Source: Halanaerobium saccharolyticum
Lineage (GTDB): Bacteria > Bacillota > Halanaerobiia > Halanaerobiales > Halanaerobiaceae
Reading direction: 5' to 3'
NCBI RefSeq assembly: GCF_004362045.1
Contig: NZ_SNWX01000012.1
Location: forward strand, 1 to 64,000
DNA length: 64,000 nt
In this document: one piece after another, positions 6,010 to 61,638 of the stretch
Position numbering within the stretch: position 1 is the first letter of the stretch
Layout: every line of letters starts with the position of its first letter
The notes under the pieces: generated by a model
Told to the model about the DNA's origin: nothing
The model's input: only the letters and a program-made list of their open reading frames with translations
The model's database searches: none
Translations under genes and position numbers: made by a program

Positions 6010-7268
6010 AACTATTAATTTTGGGTGGAGGAAGCGGCCAGCTCAGTTTAATCAAAAAGGCTAAAGAATTAGGGCATCAGGTAGTTGTTGCTGATTATTA
6101 TTGTGATGCTCCCGGGAAAAAAATTGCTGACTTTAGTTCTGAAAGCAGTACCTTTGACTTTGAAGCTAATCTTAAAACTGCAAGAAAACATAAAATAGAT
6201 GGTGTCTTAACATCCGGCACAGATCAGCCTGTTTATACTGCTGCTCAGGTGGCAGAAAAGTTAGATTTAAATCAATATATTTTAGTTAAGGCTGCAAAAG
6301 CTGTGACTAATAAGAAAGTTATGAAAAATAAATTTTCAGCAGCAGGAATTCCTACAGTCAAATATAAAATACTGGATCAAGAATTTTCTGAGAAGGAGTT
6401 AGCAGATTTTAATAGACCTTTTGTCGTTAAACCACTGGACAGTCAGGGACAGCGTGGAGTTTTCAAATTAAATTCTATTACTCAAATTAGAGAAAAATTT
6501 AACGAAGTTTTGTCTTTTTCCAGAGAAAATCAGATTCTGGTGGAAGAATATTATAAATCAAATGAAATAACAGTCAGCGGCTGGGCCTTTGCTGGTAGAG
6601 CAAAAATTTTAACTGTAACTGATCGGCTGCGTTTTGAAGAAGATATTCACATTGGTATCTGTTCTTCTCATCTTTTTCCATCTCAATATTTAAAAAAATA
6701 TAAAGATCAAATCGAAAAACTAACTCAAAAAATTGTGAGTGAGTTTGAAATAGTAAATGGACCTATCTATTTTCAATTTTTAATTGGAGAACAGGGAATT
6801 AAAGTTAATGAAATAGCCTGCAGAATTGGTGGTGCTTATGAAGGAGATTTTATGCCGGATCTGGCAGGTGTGGATATTTTAAAGATGATGGTAGAACTGG
6901 CAGCAGGTCAAGAGGTTGATAAAACGGCTCTCACCAATTATTCACTTCAGGATAATTCAAATCATCTATCTTCACAGCTCTTTTTTGCTGGCCCGGGAAA
7001 AATAAGAAAAATTACAGAAATCAGCAAGATTTTAAAACTTCCCGGTGTCTTACAGGCGGGACTTAATTATGAAATGGGAAATATAATCCCTGAGATAGAA
7101 AATGCTACTGCTAGAGCCGGTTATTTTATAGTTCTGGCAGAGAATAAAAGTCAGCTGCAGAAACGGGTAGAGGCAGTATATAATAATTTAAAAATTATTG
7201 ATCAAAATGGTAATAATCTTGTCTTACGAGAAATTGGAGAGAATTTTGGGGAGGGGCCAGGAATTTAA
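6006..7268 (+). CDS. ATP-grasp domain protein
   Basis: A 420-residue protein with an N-terminal Rossmann-like pre-ATP-grasp part (GGGSGQLSLIKKAKELGHQVVVADY) and a central ATP-grasp fold (about 115-310, PFVVKPLDSQGQRGV and FLIGEQGIKVNEIACRIGG). The layout is that of PurK/PurT/carbamoyl-phosphate-synthase-like ligases that join a carboxylate to an amine or phosphate. In a glycan operon it could ligate an acid to an amino sugar, but that is inference. Start overlaps the previous stop (ATGA). Confidence 0.8.
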   Translation: MKLLILGGGSGQLSLIKKAKELGHQVVVADYYCDAPGKKIADFSSESSTFDFEANLKTARKHKIDGVLTSGTDQPVYTAAQVAEKLDLNQYILVKAAKAVTNKKVMKNKFSAAGIPTVKYKILDQEFSEKELADFNRPFVVKPLDSQGQRGVFKLNSITQIREKFNEVLSFSRENQILVEEYYKSNEITVSGWAFAGRAKILTVTDRLRFEEDIHIGICSSHLFPSQYLKKYKDQIEKLTQKIVSEFEIVNGPIYFQFLIGEQGIKVNEIACRIGGAYEGDFMPDLAGVDILKMMVELAAGQEVDKTALTNYSLQDNSNHLSSQLFFAGPGKIRKITEISKILKLPGVLQAGLNYEMGNIIPEIENATARAGYFIVLAENKSQLQKRVEAVYNNLKIIDQNGNNLVLREIGENFGEGPGI

Positions 7269-20093: not shown

Positions 20094-20148
20094 TTGACTC
20101 GAACAATTCCGAGTGCTATACTATACTTAAAATACATGATAGGGGTAT
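20094..20148 (+). promoter_or_regulatory. Promoter with CsoR-type operator, copB-like gene
   Basis: TTGACT (20094-20099), a 17-base spacer and TATACT (20117-20122) form a strong promoter. Downstream lies ATACATGATAGGGGTAT (20132-20148), one of five similar sites in the window. The spacer shares GAGTG before the -10 with two other members. The spacer region also holds the dyad ACTCG-N8-CGAGT (20098-20115). Repression by the CsoR coded at 29655 is inferred from resemblance to known CsoR sites and from the genes served. Confidence 0.75.
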
Positions 20149-20169: not shown

Positions 20170-22104
20170 ATGGATCATCAGAAAATGTTAGAGGACTTTA
20201 AAAAGAGATTCAAAATTTCTTTAGTTATAACGGTACCAATTTTAGCACTTTCACCTTTGATTCAGAGTTTTTTTGGCTACAGTTTTGAGTTTGCAGGCAG
20301 TCAGTATGTTCTATTTCTGCTTTCTACAGTTATTTTCTTTTATGGTGGCTGGCCATTCTTAAGTGGAATGAAAAATGAATTAGCTGATAAAACTCCGGGT
20401 ATGATGACTTTAATTGCTCTTGCAATTTCTGTCGCCTATTTTTACAGTTCAGCAGTTGTCTTTGGTCTGGAAGGTAGATTTTTCTTCTGGGAGCTGGCAA
20501 CTTTAATTGTAATTATGCTTTTAGGCCACTGGATTGAGATGCGCTCGGTTATGGGAGCCTCTAATGCTCTAGAAGAACTGGCAAAACTGATGCCGGATGA
20601 GGCCCATAAAATTGTTGATGGAGAAGTTAAAGAAATTAAAATAAAAGAGCTAAAAAAGGGAGATCAGATTTTAGTTAAACCGGGTGAGAAAATACCAGCT
20701 GATGGAGTAATTTACGAAGGAGACTCCTATATAGATGAATCAATGTTAACCGGAGAATCAGAACCGGTTGTAAGAGAAGTTGATGATGAAGTAATAGGTG
20801 GATCTGTTAATGGTGACAGCTCAATTAAAATTAGAATAGAAAAAGCTGGGGATGAGAGTTACCTGTCCCAGGTTATAGATCTGGTTAAAGAATCTCAGGC
20901 AGCTAAATCGAAGACTCAGAATTTTGCCGATCGAGCAGCTTTCTGGCTGACACTAATTGCTATTACAGCAGGAACAATTACTCTTTTTAGCTGGTACTTT
21001 ATTACCGGAGACTTAGCTTTTTCTATAGAGCGGATGGCAACAGTTATGGTTATCACCTGTCCCCATGCTTTAGGGCTTGCTATACCACTGGTGGTAGCTG
21101 TTTCCACAACTCTATCAGCTAAAAATGGACTGCTGATCCGTGATCGTACTGCTTTTGAAAATGCGCGTAAAATAGATACAGTTTTATTTGATAAAACAGG
21201 TACCCTGACTAAAGGAGAATTTGGAGTTGAAGCAGTAGAAAGTTTTGTGGATAAATATAATATGGAAGAGATTCTGCAGAAAGCAGCTTCTTTAGAACAG
21301 GAATCAGAACACCCAATTGCAGCTGGAATAGTAAAAAGAGCAGAAGAAGATGAAGTAGAACTGCTGAAAGTAGATGATTTTGAGATAATTAAAGGTAAAG
21401 GTGTTATCGGAAAAATTGAAGGCGGAGATTTTAAAGCTGTTTCTCCCGGTTATCTGAAAGAAAATAATATAGAAGTACCACAGGATGCTTTAAAAGAAGG
21501 TCCATTTACCGAAATCTTTATTTTAGAAGCTGGAAATTTAATTGGAATGGTTAGACTGGCCGATCAAATTAGAGAAAGCTCTTATGAGGCAGTACAAAAA
21601 CTTAAGGATAAAGGAATTAAGGTCAAAATGCTGACCGGAGATAATCAGAAAACTGCAGAATATGTAAGTAATGAACTTGGTCTAACTGATTTCTTTGCTG
21701 AAATTCTACCTGATGAGAAGCAGAAAAAAGTAGAAGAGCTGCAGGCTGAAGGTGCTTTTGTGGCGATGACTGGTGATGGTGTTAATGATGCACCAGCCCT
21801 GGCTAAAGCTGATATAGGGATTGCAATTGGCTCAGGTACAGATGTAGCTGCCGAAACAGCAGATATAATTCTGGTTGAAAGTGATCCGCTTGATGTGCTT
21901 AAGCTTATCGAGTTTGGCAGCTTAACTTATAAGAAGATGATTCAGAATTTATTCTGGGCTACAGGCTATAACGCTTTTGCAATACCACTGGCAGCAGGTG
22001 TACTGGCAGGGGTTGGAATTATGATTTCTCCAGCAGTTGGTGCAGTACTGATGTCGATGAGTACAGTGATTGTGGCGATCAATGCCAAGATGTTAAAGTT
22101 TTAA
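20170..22104 (+). CDS. copB: Copper/silver-type P1B ATPase (CopB-like, CPH motif)
   Basis: A 644-residue P-type ATPase without an N-terminal metal-binding domain. The membrane metal motif is CPHALGLAIP, characteristic of CopB (P1B-3) pumps. Other motifs: TGESEPV (actuator), DKTGTLTKGE (phosphorylated Asp), SEHPIA (HP locus) and MTGDGVNDAPALA. It should export copper or silver across the cell membrane. It is the first gene behind a CsoR-type operator and is followed by a strong terminator, so it forms a single-gene unit. Confidence 0.9.
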   Translation: MDHQKMLEDFKKRFKISLVITVPILALSPLIQSFFGYSFEFAGSQYVLFLLSTVIFFYGGWPFLSGMKNELADKTPGMMTLIALAISVAYFYSSAVVFGLEGRFFFWELATLIVIMLLGHWIEMRSVMGASNALEELAKLMPDEAHKIVDGEVKEIKIKELKKGDQILVKPGEKIPADGVIYEGDSYIDESMLTGESEPVVREVDDEVIGGSVNGDSSIKIRIEKAGDESYLSQVIDLVKESQAAKSKTQNFADRAAFWLTLIAITAGTITLFSWYFITGDLAFSIERMATVMVITCPHALGLAIPLVVAVSTTLSAKNGLLIRDRTAFENARKIDTVLFDKTGTLTKGEFGVEAVESFVDKYNMEEILQKAASLEQESEHPIAAGIVKRAEEDEVELLKVDDFEIIKGKGVIGKIEGGDFKAVSPGYLKENNIEVPQDALKEGPFTEIFILEAGNLIGMVRLADQIRESSYEAVQKLKDKGIKVKMLTGDNQKTAEYVSNELGLTDFFAEILPDEKQKKVEELQAEGAFVAMTGDGVNDAPALAKADIGIAIGSGTDVAAETADIILVESDPLDVLKLIEFGSLTYKKMIQNLFWATGYNAFAIPLAAGVLAGVGIMISPAVGAVLMSMSTVIVAINAKMLKF

Positions 22105-22179: not shown

Positions 22180-22232
22180 CCTCAGCTAACTTCAGAATTA
22201 AATTTTTTTGAAGCTGGCTGAGGTCTTTTTTT
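22180..22232 (+). terminator. Terminator after the CopB-like gene
   Basis: CCTCAGC (22180-22186) pairs with GCTGAGG (22217-22223), with ACTTCA/TGAAG extending the stem inside, followed by a seven-base T-run. Confidence 0.85.
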
Positions 22233-22314
22233 GCAAAAAATGATTTATATCATAGCTGCCTTCCCTAAAAATAGTTATACTGGTGGTACAAAGAAATCAG
22301 GGAGGTTGTTTGAG

Positions 22315-24156
22315 ATGAAAAAGAAATTAAAAATAGTCACAATAGCAGGAATTTTAATTGCAATAGGCTGGTTAAGTAATTTATTAAATTTTGATCCACT
22401 AATTTTTAATACATCGATGGTGGCGGCAGCTATTATTGCCGGGTATCAGGTAGCTATCAATGCCTATAATACTTTAAAGATGAAAGTGATCAGTATTAAT
22501 TTACTGGTAACAATAGCTGCTGTAGGGGCAGTTATTATTGGGGAATACTGGGAAGCTGCAGCAGTTACATTTTTGTTTGCTTTTGGTTCCTATTTAGAAA
22601 GCAGAACAGTAGGTAAAGCCAGAGATGCAATTAGAGACTTAATGGATCTGGCTCCCAATTTGGCTACAGTTATCAGGGAAGGAGAAGAAAAAGAGATTGC
22701 TGCAGAAAAAGTAGAGGTTGAAGAGGTAGTAATCGTCAGGCCGGGAGAAAAAATACCGGTTGATGGTACTGTAATTAAAGGTAAAAGTGAAGTCAACCAG
22801 GCAGCTATTACAGGGGAATCAATACCGGTCAGTAAAGAAAAAGGAGATGAAGTCTTCAGCGGCACTATAAATAAGAATGGTTATCTGGAAATTAAAACTG
22901 AAAAGGTTGGAGATGACACTACTTTTGGTAAAATAATAGAGCTGGTAGAAGAGGCCCAGGAAGAAAAAGCTCCTACTCAAAAATTAATGGAGCGTTTTTC
23001 TAAATATTATACACCCGGAATTATTTTGCTTTCACTTATTTCCTACTTTATTAGCGGTAGTGTCCGGCTTTCTCTAACCCTGCTTGTTATTGGCTGTCCG
23101 GGAGCACTGGTTATTTCAACTCCGATATCTATTGTAGCCGGAATTGGTAATGGAGCCAAAAATGGAATTTTGATCAAGGGAGGTGAGTACTTAGAAAAAT
23201 CAGGAGAAATCGATATGGTTGCCTTTGATAAAACTGGAACCTTAAGTAAAGGAGAAGCAGAAGTTAATCAGATAATAACTTATAACAAAAATGAAGCTGA
23301 AGTTTTAAGTCTGGCGGCAGCTGCTGAATTTAATTCTGAACATCACCTGGCCCGGGCCATCAAAAATAAAGCAGAAAAGACACTGGAAACAGAAATTAAA
23401 TCTCCAGTAAACTTTGAGACTCATACCGGAAAAGGAGTAACTGCTCAAATTGACAGTAAAAAAATTATGATCGGAAACAGCAGATTATTTAGGGAGCAGG
23501 GAATTGAAATCAGTCAGGAAATTGAAGAGCAAAAAAACCAGCTGGAAGCAGAGGGGAAAACAGTGGTTGTGGCAGCAGAAAATGATCAAATTATCGCCTT
23601 AATTTCCATTGCTGACAGACCTCGAGAAAATGCCTATCAGATTGTAGAGAAGCTAAAAAATGTAGGTATCAAAAAAGTAGTGATGTTAACTGGAGACAAT
23701 GAGCGAATAGCAGAATCAGTTGCTGATGAATTAAATCTTGATGGTTATAAAGCTGAATTACTGCCCGAAGATAAGGTAAAGGCGGTAGAAGAATATCAAA
23801 AAGAAGGTTATAAAGTGGCTATGGTAGGAGATGGAATCAATGATACACCTTCTCTGGTAACGGCTGATATTGGGATCGCAATGGGAGCAGCCGGTACAGA
23901 TGCTGCAATTGATACGGCGGATATTACTTTAATGGCAGATAACTTAAATAAACTGCCATATGCAATAGGACTCAGCAAAGCAGCTAATAGAAATATAAAA
24001 CAAAATGTAGTTTTTGCTGTTCTGATTGTTTTCGCTCTACTGGCAGGTGTTTTAGGTCAGAAAGTATTTCTAGCTTCTGGAATGCTGGTCCATGAGTTGA
24101 GTGTTTTAATAGTAATCTTTAATGCAATGCGCTTATTGAGATATGATACAGCATAA
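22315..24156 (+). CDS. Heavy-metal P1B ATPase with unusual CPG motif
   Basis: A 613-residue P-type ATPase of the CadA/ZntA kind by overall similarity, lacking an N-terminal metal-binding domain. TGESIPV, DKTGTLSKGE and GDGINDTPSL are normal. Two key sites differ: the membrane metal motif is CPGALVISTP instead of CPC, and the HP locus reads SEHHLA instead of SEHPLA. The substrate is therefore uncertain (zinc, cadmium or another ion). ATG 22315 is chosen for GGGAGG nine bases upstream; an ORF extension to 22231 would start within the terminator. A separate HMA-domain protein follows. Confidence 0.85.
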   Translation: MKKKLKIVTIAGILIAIGWLSNLLNFDPLIFNTSMVAAAIIAGYQVAINAYNTLKMKVISINLLVTIAAVGAVIIGEYWEAAAVTFLFAFGSYLESRTVGKARDAIRDLMDLAPNLATVIREGEEKEIAAEKVEVEEVVIVRPGEKIPVDGTVIKGKSEVNQAAITGESIPVSKEKGDEVFSGTINKNGYLEIKTEKVGDDTTFGKIIELVEEAQEEKAPTQKLMERFSKYYTPGIILLSLISYFISGSVRLSLTLLVIGCPGALVISTPISIVAGIGNGAKNGILIKGGEYLEKSGEIDMVAFDKTGTLSKGEAEVNQIITYNKNEAEVLSLAAAAEFNSEHHLARAIKNKAEKTLETEIKSPVNFETHTGKGVTAQIDSKKIMIGNSRLFREQGIEISQEIEEQKNQLEAEGKTVVVAAENDQIIALISIADRPRENAYQIVEKLKNVGIKKVVMLTGDNERIAESVADELNLDGYKAELLPEDKVKAVEEYQKEGYKVAMVGDGINDTPSLVTADIGIAMGAAGTDAAIDTADITLMADNLNKLPYAIGLSKAANRNIKQNVVFAVLIVFALLAGVLGQKVFLASGMLVHELSVLIVIFNAMRLLRYDTA

Positions 24157-25273: not shown

Positions 25274-25329
25274 TTGACAGCCTGAATCTTGAGTGTTATA
25301 CTATGTTTAAAGATACCATATAGGGGTAT
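25274..25329 (+). promoter_or_regulatory. Promoter with CsoR-type operator, methyltransferase gene
   Basis: TTGACA (25274-25279), a 17-base spacer and TATACT (25297-25302) are followed by ATACCATATAGGGGTAT (25313-25329). The spacer end TGAGTGT, the -10 and the following ATGTTTA match the promoter at 60192 almost base for base. Confidence 0.75.
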
Positions 25330-25996: not shown

Positions 25997-26047
25997 TTGA
26001 CAAAAACACTAAGTAATGTTACTATTATTTATACCCCCTACATGTAT
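25997..26047 (+). promoter_or_regulatory. Promoter with inverted CsoR-type operator, CopZ-like gene
   Basis: TTGACA (25997-26002), a 17-base spacer and TACTAT (26020-26025) are followed by ATACCCCCTACATGTAT (26031-26047). Read on the other strand this is ATACATGTAGGGGGTAT, matching the 20132 and 26306 sites. The operator lies just after the expected transcription start. Confidence 0.7.
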
Positions 26048-26072: not shown

Positions 26073-26282
26073 ATGAAAAAGACAATTATCATTGAAGGAA
26101 TGTCCTGTGGACACTGTGAAATGCACACTAAAGAAGAATTAGAAAAAATTGATGGTGTTATTTCTGCAGAAGCTGATGCTGATCAGGGTCAGGCTGTAGT
26201 AGAAATGGAAAAAGAGGTAGCAGAAGATAAGCTAAAAGCCGCTGTTGAAGAAGCTGGCTACGAATATATTAAAACTGCATAG
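26073..26282 (+). CDS. copZ: Copper chaperone, HMA domain (CopZ-like)
   Basis: A 69-residue HMA domain with the full GMSCGHC metal site (Cys 12 and Cys 15). ATG 26073 is chosen because AAAGGAG lies ten bases upstream and the longer reading would start over the promoter and operator. CopZ proteins carry Cu(I) to CopA or to CsoR. An acidic C-terminal half (EMEKEVAEDKLKAAVEEAGY) is seen. It precedes the RseC-like gene and CopA. Confidence 0.88.
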   Translation: MKKTIIIEGMSCGHCEMHTKEELEKIDGVISAEADADQGQAVVEMEKEVAEDKLKAAVEEAGYEYIKTA

Positions 26283-26305: not shown

Positions 26306-26322
26306 ATACATGCTAGGGGTAC
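26306..26322 (+). promoter_or_regulatory. CsoR-type operator ahead of the RseC-like gene
   Basis: ATACATGCTAGGGGTAC differs from the 20132 site at only two of 17 positions. No clear -35/-10 pair precedes it, so it may block a weak promoter or act on read-through from the CopZ-like gene. Confidence 0.55.
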
Positions 26323-26349: not shown

Positions 26350-26790
26350 ATGGAAGAATTAGCTACTGTAGTTAAAAAGAAAAGCGAGAAGGCAGAGGTT
26401 AAAATCACAAGATATTCTGCCTGCAGTAAGTGTGATAAAAGCTGCAGTCTGGCTGGTGACAGCCATGATCAGGACGAAATTGTTTTAGAAGTGGAAGATA
26501 GGATTGGAGTTACACCAGGAGATCAGGTTTTAGTTGAAATGGAAAAAGGCAATCTCTTATTTGCTACTATTGTTGTTTACGTAATTCCAATATTTTTAAT
26601 GATAGCAGGCTATTTTTTCGGAGTCTGGATGGCAGCCTTGTTGAATATAGCGGCAGCAGAAGTGGCAGGTATTGCAGGTACTTTTGTTTTTTTAATTCTT
26701 TCGTTTTTAATAAACAAATTATTTAATTCTCATCTGAAAAAGACTTCTTCTTTTGAGCCGAAAATTAAACGAATAATTAATAGAAGTTAA
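26350..26790 (+). CDS. RseC/MucC-family membrane protein
   Basis: A 146-residue SoxR-reducing-system/RseC-like protein. The N-terminal half has the Cys cluster SACSKCDKSC (Cys 25, 28, 32), and two hydrophobic helices occupy about 75-97 and 100-121, with a basic tail. RseC proteins are tied to electron transfer with Rnf complexes, and the Cys cluster could bind a metal or Fe-S centre. Here the gene sits between CopZ and CopA, so a role in copper handling or thiol redox is plausible. AGGAGGT precedes the start. Confidence 0.8.
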   Translation: MEELATVVKKKSEKAEVKITRYSACSKCDKSCSLAGDSHDQDEIVLEVEDRIGVTPGDQVLVEMEKGNLLFATIVVYVIPIFLMIAGYFFGVWMAALLNIAAAEVAGIAGTFVFLILSFLINKLFNSHLKKTSSFEPKIKRIINRS

Positions 26791-26883
26791 ATATATATTA
26801 GATCCACACATGATTGCTTTAGAAGCTAAATCAAAAAATTGTACTTTTAGAAACAGTAATATATACTCCAGGGAGGATATAAG

Positions 26884-27021
26884 ATGGCTCACGGTAAAGA
26901 TAAAAAAGGCTGGTGGCAGAAATTTGTTGATAAATTAGCTTCAGCAAATGAAAAACAGTATGGAGATGATGTTCCGGACTGCTGTGGAGATGGAAAAACA
27001 AAAAAAGAAAATGGAAAGTGA
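26884..27021 (+). CDS. Small Cys-pair protein (LDCC-motif-like)
   Basis: A 45-residue ORF with GGGAGGA nine bases upstream. It begins MAHGKDKKGWWQKFVDKLA and then has SANEKQYG and a PDCCGDG motif (Cys 33, 34) before a Lys-rich tail. The layout (basic-aromatic helix, then a Cys pair) recalls the short clostridial LDCC-motif putative metal-binding proteins, from memory only. It sits between the RseC-like gene and CopA on the same strand, so a copper-buffering role is possible. It has the codon use and ribosome site of a real gene. Confidence 0.75.
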   Translation: MAHGKDKKGWWQKFVDKLASANEKQYGDDVPDCCGDGKTKKENGK

Positions 27022-29583: not shown

Positions 29584-29654
29584 AGCTAGCATTATTTAAA
29601 GATAAATTGAGAATAATTGAATTTGAAATGGAAAAATAGAATGGGGGGGATTTG

Positions 29655-29930
29655 ATGAATTCTTTATGTGATTTAGATAAAAAAGAGTTAACAACTCGTT
29701 TACGAAGAATAGAAGGTCAGGTTCGTGGACTGCAGCGGATGGTGGAAGAAGATAAATACTGTGTTGATATCTTACATCAAATTAATGCAGTCCAGGGTGG
29801 ACTCAAAAAAGTTGGTTTAAAAATTCTGGATAAACATGTCCACGGCTGTGTACAGAGGGCCGTTAAAGACGAAGAAGGCGATGATGTAATTAATGAACTG
29901 ATGGAGGTACTGGCCAAATTTACTGATTAA
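29655..29930 (+). CDS. csoR: CsoR-family copper-sensing repressor
   Basis: A 91-residue DUF156 regulator. The Cu(I) ligands of CsoR are all present and fall at Cys 36, His 61 and Cys 65 (YCVDIL and KHVHGC), which favours copper sensing over the persulfide sensor CstR, which lacks the His. The RLRRIEGQVRGLQRMVEE helix is typical. ATG 29655 is used, behind GGGGGGA; a TTG three bases earlier is possible. It is last in the copA unit and is the natural repressor for the five 17-bp sites. Confidence 0.92.
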   Translation: MNSLCDLDKKELTTRLRRIEGQVRGLQRMVEEDKYCVDILHQINAVQGGLKKVGLKILDKHVHGCVQRAVKDEEGDDVINELMEVLAKFTD

Positions 29931-60191: not shown

Positions 60192-60246
60192 TTGACAGGA
60201 ACAATCCTGAGTGTTATACTATGTTTAGGATACCTAACAGGGGTAT
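60192..60246 (+). promoter_or_regulatory. Promoter with CsoR-type operator, DUF305 operon
   Basis: TTGACA (60192-60197), 17-base spacer, TATACT (60215-60220), then ATACCTAACAGGGGTAT (60230-60246). The spacer end and -10 region are nearly the same as at 25274. AGGA-N4-TCCT lies in the spacer. This places the operon 30 kb away in the same proposed CsoR regulon. Confidence 0.75.
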
Positions 60247-60285
60247 ATTTGGGGACGAATTTGAGTTTCAAAGGAGGCCAATTTA

Positions 60286-60846
60286 ATGAAAAAATATTTA
60301 ATTACTACTTTGATTATTTTAACAATTATTGCAGCAGGTGCTAATTTAACTTTTGCTCAACCTGGCCCAGGAATGATGGGACCCTGGATGATGGGTCCTG
60401 GAATGATGGAATCAGTTGACAGTGAGTATGAATTCTTAATTAAAATGATACCACACCATGAGGAAGCAGTTGCTAAGGCAAAAATTTTAAGAGAAAATAC
60501 CAATAGAGATAGAATGAGAGAGTTTGCTGAAGATATTATAGAAGTTCAGACTCAGGAAATTGAAGAGATGGAAAAATACCTGGCTAAGTGGTATCCAGAT
60601 AGGAGCAATAATTATCAGTATGAGCCAATGATGGGGAATTACGAAGGTTTAGCTGGAGAAGAATTGGACCGTGCTTTTTTAGAAGATATGATTTTTCATC
60701 ACATGGGAGCAGTAATGATGTCACAGCAGTTAATAATGCGTAATTTAGATGAACATCGAGAAGTATATCTGCTTGCCAGAAGTATCAGAGACAGTCAGCG
60801 CGAAGAAATCTTTATGATGAGAGACTGGTTAAATAACTGGTATTAG
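60286..60846 (+). CDS. DUF305 secreted metal-binding-like protein
   Basis: A 186-residue protein with a signal peptide (cleavage likely after TFA at 24) and a Met/Gly/Pro-rich linker (PGMMGPWMMGPGMM). Two four-helix-type DUF305 repeats follow, each with a His-His/Met motif: MIPHHEEAVAKAK and IFHHMGAVMMSQQ. DUF305 proteins such as CopM bind copper outside the membrane. Start supported by AAAGGAGG. Its CsoR-type promoter supports a copper role. Confidence 0.88.
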   Translation: MKKYLITTLIILTIIAAGANLTFAQPGPGMMGPWMMGPGMMESVDSEYEFLIKMIPHHEEAVAKAKILRENTNRDRMREFAEDIIEVQTQEIEEMEKYLAKWYPDRSNNYQYEPMMGNYEGLAGEELDRAFLEDMIFHHMGAVMMSQQLIMRNLDEHREVYLLARSIRDSQREEIFMMRDWLNNWY

Positions 60847-60894
60847 TAAATACTGACAATATCAGTAAAACTTTTTAAAATAGGGGGAATAATT

Positions 60895-61206
60895 ATGATG
60901 GGTTTTGGCCCTGGAATGATGGGTGGAGGATTTTCGTTTATTTTCTGGATAGTAATTGTTGGAGTTGTTTACTACTTTTTTAAAGAATATAATAGAAATA
61001 ATCACCACAGAGATGATAAGCGCAGACATGATGATCAGAGACATGGTGGCCCGGGTTATAATGATCGAAACCATTTTAATAATGGAAAAGTAATTGAACA
61101 TCAAAAAAATGCAGACAGTGCTGAAGAAATAGCAAGACAGCGCTATGCAAAAGGCGAAATTTCAAAAGAAGAATTGAGAGAAATCTTGAATAATTTAAAC
61201 AATTAA
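60895..61206 (+). CDS. SHOCT-domain membrane protein
   Basis: A 103-residue protein: Met/Gly-rich start (GFGPGMMGGG), one membrane helix (about 14-30), a His/Arg/Asp-rich middle (NNHHRDDKRRHDDQRH) and a C-terminal SHOCT domain (AEEIARQRYAKGEISKEELREIL). The His-rich part may bind metal. Follows the DUF305 gene by 48 bases behind TAGGGGG. Confidence 0.85.
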   Translation: MMGFGPGMMGGGFSFIFWIVIVGVVYYFFKEYNRNNHHRDDKRRHDDQRHGGPGYNDRNHFNNGKVIEHQKNADSAEEIARQRYAKGEISKEELREILNNLNN

Positions 61207-61248
61207 GTCCACAAGAAATTGCGATTTAAAATTCTAAGGGGGAAAATT

Positions 61249-61638
61249 ATGAGTAATTACGGTATTCAAAAAACAGTTAAACTTTCTTATCAGGAAACAA
61301 TCAAAAAGGTCAAAGCTGAGTTAAAAAAAGAAGGATTTGGGGTTCTGACAGAACTGGATATGAAAAAAATATTTAAAGAAAAGCTGGATAAAGAAATGAA
61401 TGAATATATTATACTGGAAGCCTGTAATCCTGCTTTTGCCTTTGAGGGAATAGCAGAGGAGCCTGAACTCGGTTTACTGCTTCCCTGTAATGTAATTGTT
61501 TATAAAACTGAAACTGAGGAAGTTAAAGTAGCAGCAGTTGATCCCAAAAAGGCACTGGGAATGTCAGAAAATAAAAGGATTAATGAAATAGCTCAGGAGA
61601 TCCAAACAAGATTAGAACGAGTTATAGAGAATGTATAA
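61249..61638 (+). CDS. DUF302-domain protein
   Basis: A 129-residue DUF302 protein (VKAELKKEGFGVLTELDMKKIFKEKL, ILEACNPAFAFEGIAEEPELG, LLPCNVIVY). One Cys in each of the last two motifs. No signal peptide, so cytoplasmic. Function unknown in the family, but it often accompanies sulfur and copper genes. ATG 61249 follows AAGGGGG. Third gene of the DUF305 operon. Confidence 0.87.
   Translation: MSNYGIQKTVKLSYQETIKKVKAELKKEGFGVLTELDMKKIFKEKLDKEMNEYIILEACNPAFAFEGIAEEPELGLLLPCNVIVYKTETEEVKVAAVDPKKALGMSENKRINEIAQEIQTRLERVIENV

Follow-up and report, generated by a model that had tools for sequence, protein, structure and literature searches.

A 45-residue Asp-Cys-Cys microprotein encoded beside copA in Halanaerobium saccharolyticum is probably a copper-handling helper

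We found that the short open reading frame at positions 26884-27021 of the window (the whole 64,000-nucleotide stretch of H. saccharolyticum DNA analysed here), which we call CC_mini, is a real gene and a plain member of the NCBIfam family NF040898, and that its product is probably a tiny copper-handling helper. The reading that we consider fairly likely is that CC_mini is a cytosolic, CsoR-controlled, Cu(I)-binding microprotein, built of a helix and a tail, that serves CopA or copper export. The family was already catalogued, with “putative” metal binding in the name of its model, and no paper on a tested function was found. Literature searches for NF040898 by “LDCC motif”, by accession and by full name returned no paper on it; among the matches listed, “LDCC” referred to the lysine decarboxylase LdcC or to non-metal subjects, and a search for Halanaerobium with copper and CopA was likewise negative. 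What is new are three lines of evidence that point to copper, namely a conserved gene neighborhood, CsoR-type operators, and YHS fusions that carry Cys-His in place of Cys-Cys. This comparative evidence turns “putative metal-binding” into the specific claim of a CsoR-regulated Cu(I) helper, which would be very small for a part of a copper-export pathway.

The gene and its immediate neighbors are as follows.

26073-26282, plus strand: CopZ-like protein with a single HMA domain, with its own operator at 26032-26046
26350-26790, plus strand: RseC/MucC-like membrane protein with an N-terminal Cys cluster (PF04246, 107.7 bits)
26870-26876, plus strand: Shine-Dalgarno-like AGGGAGG 5' of the CC_mini ATG, identified by eye
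26884-27021, plus strand: CC_mini, 45 residues, ATG start; predicted basic helix (about residues 5-25) and flexible tail with D32-C33-C34
27091-29583, plus strand: CopA, P1B-type ATPase with two HMA domains (TIGR01511/TIGR01525, PF00403/PF00122) and a CPC motif read from the translation
29652-29930, plus strand: CsoR-family repressor (PF02583, 105.5 bits; RLRR and C..H..C recognized by eye)

The translation of the frame is MAHGKDKKGWWQKFVDKLASANEKQYGDDVPDCCGDGKTKKENGK. All features first described for it were confirmed: a short ORF with a strong ribosome site of its own, a WW-rich basic stretch and PDCCGDG, lying between the RseC-like gene (93 bp upstream) and copA (69 bp downstream). The suspected likeness to LDCC-motif proteins proved to be true family membership. 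CC_mini scored 52.8 bits against the NF040898 model “LDCC motif putative metal-binding protein” (CC_mini_metal), above the curated cut-off of 30, with model positions 1-30 of 31 aligned to residues 8-37. This was the sole match in the NCBIfam scan, and the Pfam scan gave no match up to E 1. In CC_mini, as in the family, a basic helix that ends near FG/YG is followed by the conserved DCC; the protein differs from the family name only in reading PDCC for LDCC. On the other hand, the original prediction that such a gene is easily missed by gene finders does not hold, as NCBI already has this curated model. A profile built from our own family alignment gave 68.5 bits for CC_mini compared with a best score of 15.6 in ten Markov resamples of the window; the seed of this profile contains CC_mini itself, whereas the NF040898 model is independent.

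CC_mini is under purifying selection in Halanaerobium. The dN/dS was 0.03-0.21 in eight pairwise comparisons of the window gene with Halanaerobium-group relatives (one dS was saturated), and pooled pN/pS within the genus was 0.22, or 0.14 for the core from the helix to the Cys pair. Lack of conservation of the frame, on which the original prediction had staked the ORF, was not what we observed: the frame was present in 8 of 12 Halanaerobium genomes (host included) and in both other genomes of the host's family. It was missing from the remaining four genus genomes, three of which are 99% complete, and CC_mini is thus dispensable. A spurious ORF or leader peptide, which short length would favor, has a negligible probability given this selection, the family model, the ribosome site and a good Shine-Dalgarno match at 66 of 81 scored family starts.

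The comparison set consisted of 84 loci, which represent 57 genera in 33 families. L076, L078 (two copies), L079, L080 and L081 were left out because they matched weakly, most of them lacking the Cys pair or scoring under the cut-off; L084-L105 were left out as apparent repeats of genomes already included, except for L095-L097, which were added. A tandem pair in G564 was counted as one locus, and a broken copy, L077, was retained. Controls were 20 stretches at round coordinates, picked in 12 of the same genomes.

A published study of CsoR (PMC3902906) describes the type 2 site as a pseudopalindrome with TAC-X9-GTA around G-tracts, and reports that binding requires the TAC/GTA repeat. The motif TACCC-N5-GGGTA fits this form, and had 44 exact occurrences in 1,005,027 bases of the loci but none in the 240,020 bases of control sequence. 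In the 600 bp upstream of the domain, 14 of 84 loci had an exact box and 18 a box with at most one mismatch, compared with chance values of 0.03 and 0.67 from Markov resamples and of 1.9% and 3.6% (approximately 1.6 and 3.1 loci) from random windows in the same loci. In L016 and L025 the box lies directly 5' of CC_mini itself. The predicted operators of the window, all of them sequence matches, are listed below.

20133-20147, plus strand: candidate CsoR-type operator before the first P1B ATPase gene (20170)
25314-25328, plus strand: candidate CsoR-type operator before a methyltransferase gene (25357)
26032-26046, minus strand: candidate CsoR-type operator before the HMA gene
26307-26321, plus strand: candidate CsoR-type operator TACATGCTAGGGGTA, ending 28 bp before the RseC-like gene, which precedes CC_mini
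60231-60245, plus strand: candidate CsoR-type operator before DUF305, SHOCT-like and DUF302 genes

The box at 26307 is a candidate operator in the promoter region of the transcription unit of CC_mini, and has syntenic counterparts in other Halanaerobium loci. The Halanaerobium form of the operator, TACMNNNNRGGGGTA, occurs five times in the window (0.02 expected), ending 22-40 bp before start codons; since this form was derived from the sites of the window and its relatives, the chance figure flatters, and a tally over the whole host genome (3.36 Mb) is the fairer measure. It gave six sites in total, five of them inside the window, compared with three for a reversed-pattern control. The sixth site precedes a SHOCT-like gene that adjoins an ATPase fragment. 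Only the Halanaerobium form was enriched in the window; a scan for the symmetric operator with two mismatches found 13 sites where 9.7 were expected. These boxes, best described as predicted CsoR sites rather than footprints, yield a predicted CsoR regulon of six sites for a Halanaerobium genome. The repressor scored 88.5 bits against the RicR model NF052430, below its cut-off of 175, and promoter and terminator scans of the CC_mini operon did no better than shuffles.

Besides, the genes for the DUF305, SHOCT-like and DUF302 proteins at 60231-61638, behind their CsoR-type box, form a second likely copper-responsive unit of the window.

Copper genes surround the domain far beyond the host. Of the 84 loci, 39 (25 genera, 15 families) encoded a P1B-type ATPase no more than 4 kb away, 33 of these co-directionally, and 52 (33 genera, 18 families) encoded an ATPase, an HMA protein, an HMA-DsbD_2-cupredoxin protein or CsoR in that range; the same markers were found in none of the 20 control regions. 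As the 21 genomes counted had 78 such ATPase matches in all, just 2-6 per genome, adjacency by chance is roughly estimated at 1-2%. CPC, the motif of Cu(I) pumps, was present in 36 of 37 DKTGT-bearing ATPase frames within 4 kb of the domain. Gene order varies: CC_mini precedes copA in Halanaerobium, directly follows it in the Thermosediminibacter group, and stands beside csoR in others. In L053, L070, L074, L082 and L123, only 5-26 bp separate CC_mini from the ATPase gene. At loci without an ATPase, the neighbor was an HMA-DsbD_2-cupredoxin protein, CcdA, or no searched gene. Of the 84 loci, 9 had HMA-DsbD_2 neighbors, 13 had RseC-like genes close by and 6 had CcdA, directly 3' of CC_mini in L138, L140 and L146. 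No searched partner was present within 4 kb in 17 of 84 loci. Among them, L122 lies at the end of its contig; L122 (exact) and L025 (one mismatch to the symmetric consensus) have a CsoR-type box. The partnerless loci and the 4 of 12 genus genomes without the gene count against our preferred reading, as do the weak amphipathicity of the window helix and the modest structure models described below.

Several neighbors deserve a description of their own. HMA-DsbD_2 proteins next to CC_mini, some with cupredoxin domains, are encoded in L128 (3888-5738), L141 (6213-8057), L136 (6199-7938) and L068 (6959-8839), and themselves have Cys-Cys or Cys-His tails at or close to their ends; the domain scan covered those of L128, L141 and L068. 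In L065 and L066, CC_mini lies in a recurrent cluster with genes for CcdA, a membrane protein resembling spermine synthase, an Lgt homologue and a YHS protein, and parts of this cluster are also seen in L028, L109, L138 and L140; CsoR-type boxes surround the Lgt-containing cluster in L065 and L066. In the window, the P1B-like ATPase at 22231-24156 has the metal motif CPG (VIGCPGALVIS) and not CPC, and the adjoining ATPase at 20170 carries CPH. CPG in place of CPC is unusual for P1B-like ATPases.

The architecture of the protein is simple. Cysteines were counted in 71 non-fused proteins, namely the window protein and those of the 70 non-fused loci for which a start could be scored, as it could not in L063, L074 and L077. 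Of the 71, 70 retain the Cys pair, which follows Asp in 65 of these 70, and 68 have exactly two Cys. All 64 distinct family helices were more amphipathic than their own shuffles (mean z 2.2); taken alone, the window helix was not significant (z 1.3; 12% of shuffles reach its value). A structure model of CC_mini placed a helix at residues 5-25, with pLDDT of about 86 at residues 11-20; for this model and that of a YHS fusion, confidence is modest overall, with a mean pLDDT of 66.0 and 66.8, respectively. Conservation and prediction thus describe CC_mini as a short basic amphipathic helix followed by a flexible Asp-Cys-Cys tail.

In 11 loci, ten in one class and one (L028) in the host's own order, a YHS domain is fused N-terminally to a C-terminal CC_mini domain, and in the example scanned each domain was over its cut-off. 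The cysteines of the YHS domain do not vary among the 11 fusions, nor does a final Cys-His, and the non-fused L073 likewise reads Ser-Cys-His. A change of the second Cys to His keeps a metal ligand and loses a disulfide, and so a metal ligand fits better; the natural swap separates the two roles. In the fusion model the Cys-His tail is disordered and is not placed on the YHS site, so that the model speaks neither for nor against a site shared by the two domains. A report on the Mycobacterium phlei cyclase (PMC4626032) describes its YHS domain as a probable copper sensor. YHS proteins are related to the family through these fusions; the window CC_mini has no YHS domain (no match to PF04945), which was found only in fused relatives.

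From these observations we propose the following scheme. Upon copper load, CsoR would leave the 26307 operator, and the unit of RseC-like gene, CC_mini, copA and csoR would then be transcribed, as suggested by operator, gene order and orientation. The Cys pair may form a surface site for Cu(I), to which a partner thiol or a second copy of the protein probably contributes, because two adjacent cysteines make a poor linear site alone. The helix may keep the pair near the membrane or CopA, and copper would pass to CopA or, elsewhere, to HMA and DsbD_2 copper proteins. A donor or adaptor to CopA appears slightly favored over a buffer, because two cysteines have small capacity and the helix is conserved. 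The original prediction had left the choice as a copper buffer or a Cys-pair adaptor for CopA; its copper link is borne out by the neighborhoods, the CsoR-type operators and the YHS fusions, whereas “adaptor for CopA” is just one plausible version, because only 39 of 84 loci have a P1B ATPase gene within 4 kb.

A pure buffer or sponge, made in quantity and holding Cu(I) until export by CopA with no specific docking, would explain the CsoR-type operators, the single Cys pair on a flexible tail, the strong ribosome site and the fact that the partner ATPase is not always present. However, two Cys per protein provide little capacity, and the conserved helix and the linkage to ATPase genes at 5-26 bp suggest a partner; we consider a pure buffer unlikely. 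Metallothioneins and Csp copper storage proteins resemble CC_mini, when read as a buffer, in being thiolate metal binders, but they have many Cys that form a metal cluster, and 68 of 71 non-fused family members have just two. Alternatively, the amphipathic helix might bind the ATPase and tune its activity or stability, with the Cys pair sensing copper rather than carrying it. Helix conservation and gene linkage agree with such a regulator of CopA, but members also adjoin copper proteins other than CopA and some stand alone, which leaves it a decidedly low probability. A redox adaptor, whose vicinal Cys pair would shuttle electrons with CcdA/DsbD-type neighbors while copper is incidental, is suggested by CcdA immediately after CC_mini in three loci and by the HMA-DsbD_2 and RseC-like genes. 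This is improbable, since the Cys-His of the eleven fusions and L073 cannot form a disulfide, CcdA is near in just 6 of 84 loci, and the CsoR-type operators and CPC ATPases indicate copper. The true substrate could also be another soft metal, such as silver, zinc or mercury, to which the CPH and CPG ATPases of the window cluster might point; HMA and YHS domains are not copper-exclusive. We rate this no higher than a redox role, as the CsoR-type operators and CPC in 36 of 37 ATPases fit Cu(I)/Ag(I).

The preferred reading, a CsoR-controlled Cu(I) helper of CopA or copper export, can be compared with known copper donors. CopZ/Atx1-type HMA chaperones are likewise small, with a Cys pair and a gene beside copA and csoR, but CC_mini has neither an HMA domain nor CxxC, and consists of helix and tail instead. 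According to PMC7558416, CupA of Streptococcus is a membrane-anchored copper chaperone for CopA and a non-CopZ donor. As described there, it resembles what is proposed for CC_mini in working for its own CopA at the face of the membrane, and so there is precedent for a helper dedicated to one pump; the architecture does not match, as the 45-residue CC_mini, a helix and a tail, has neither the cupredoxin domain nor the transmembrane anchor of CupA. More tentatively, and with odds that we place below even, NF040898 may represent a class of Cu(I) metallochaperones of its own that lack a folded domain, in which a docking helix carries a one-site tail, under CsoR control in anaerobic bacteria, with CopA or HMA-DsbD_2-cupredoxin proteins as partners and one group fused to YHS with the second Cys replaced by His.

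With regard to distribution, the survey was almost wholly within the host phylum. Of 61 genomes near the host, 14 had a member of the NF040898-type family, and a sample of 398 genomes from the phylum yielded 33 with a member, 31 of them over the cut-off. In four classes it was present in 13/26, 3/13, 22/291 and 13/97 genomes, compared with 0/14 control genomes each time. No relative of CC_mini was found among solved structures. An origin from a mobile element was considered and is unsupported, because searches of viral contigs, plasmids and phages gave no relative.

Some loci showed unusual forms of the gene. In L077 (approximately 6904-7077), CC_mini is split across two frames and is probably a frameshifted, decaying gene. 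L076, L078 and L080, from two genomes, are relatives of the helix without the Cys pair, and a normal or Cys-His copy is also present there. In L060 (9155-9736) and L067 (4386-4970), a FeoB-like GTPase, named by eye, has an N-terminus of the form MDCC...WW, in which the parts of CC_mini appear in reversed order. Finally, L147 (5901-6331) contains tandem duplicate CC_mini genes immediately upstream of copA.
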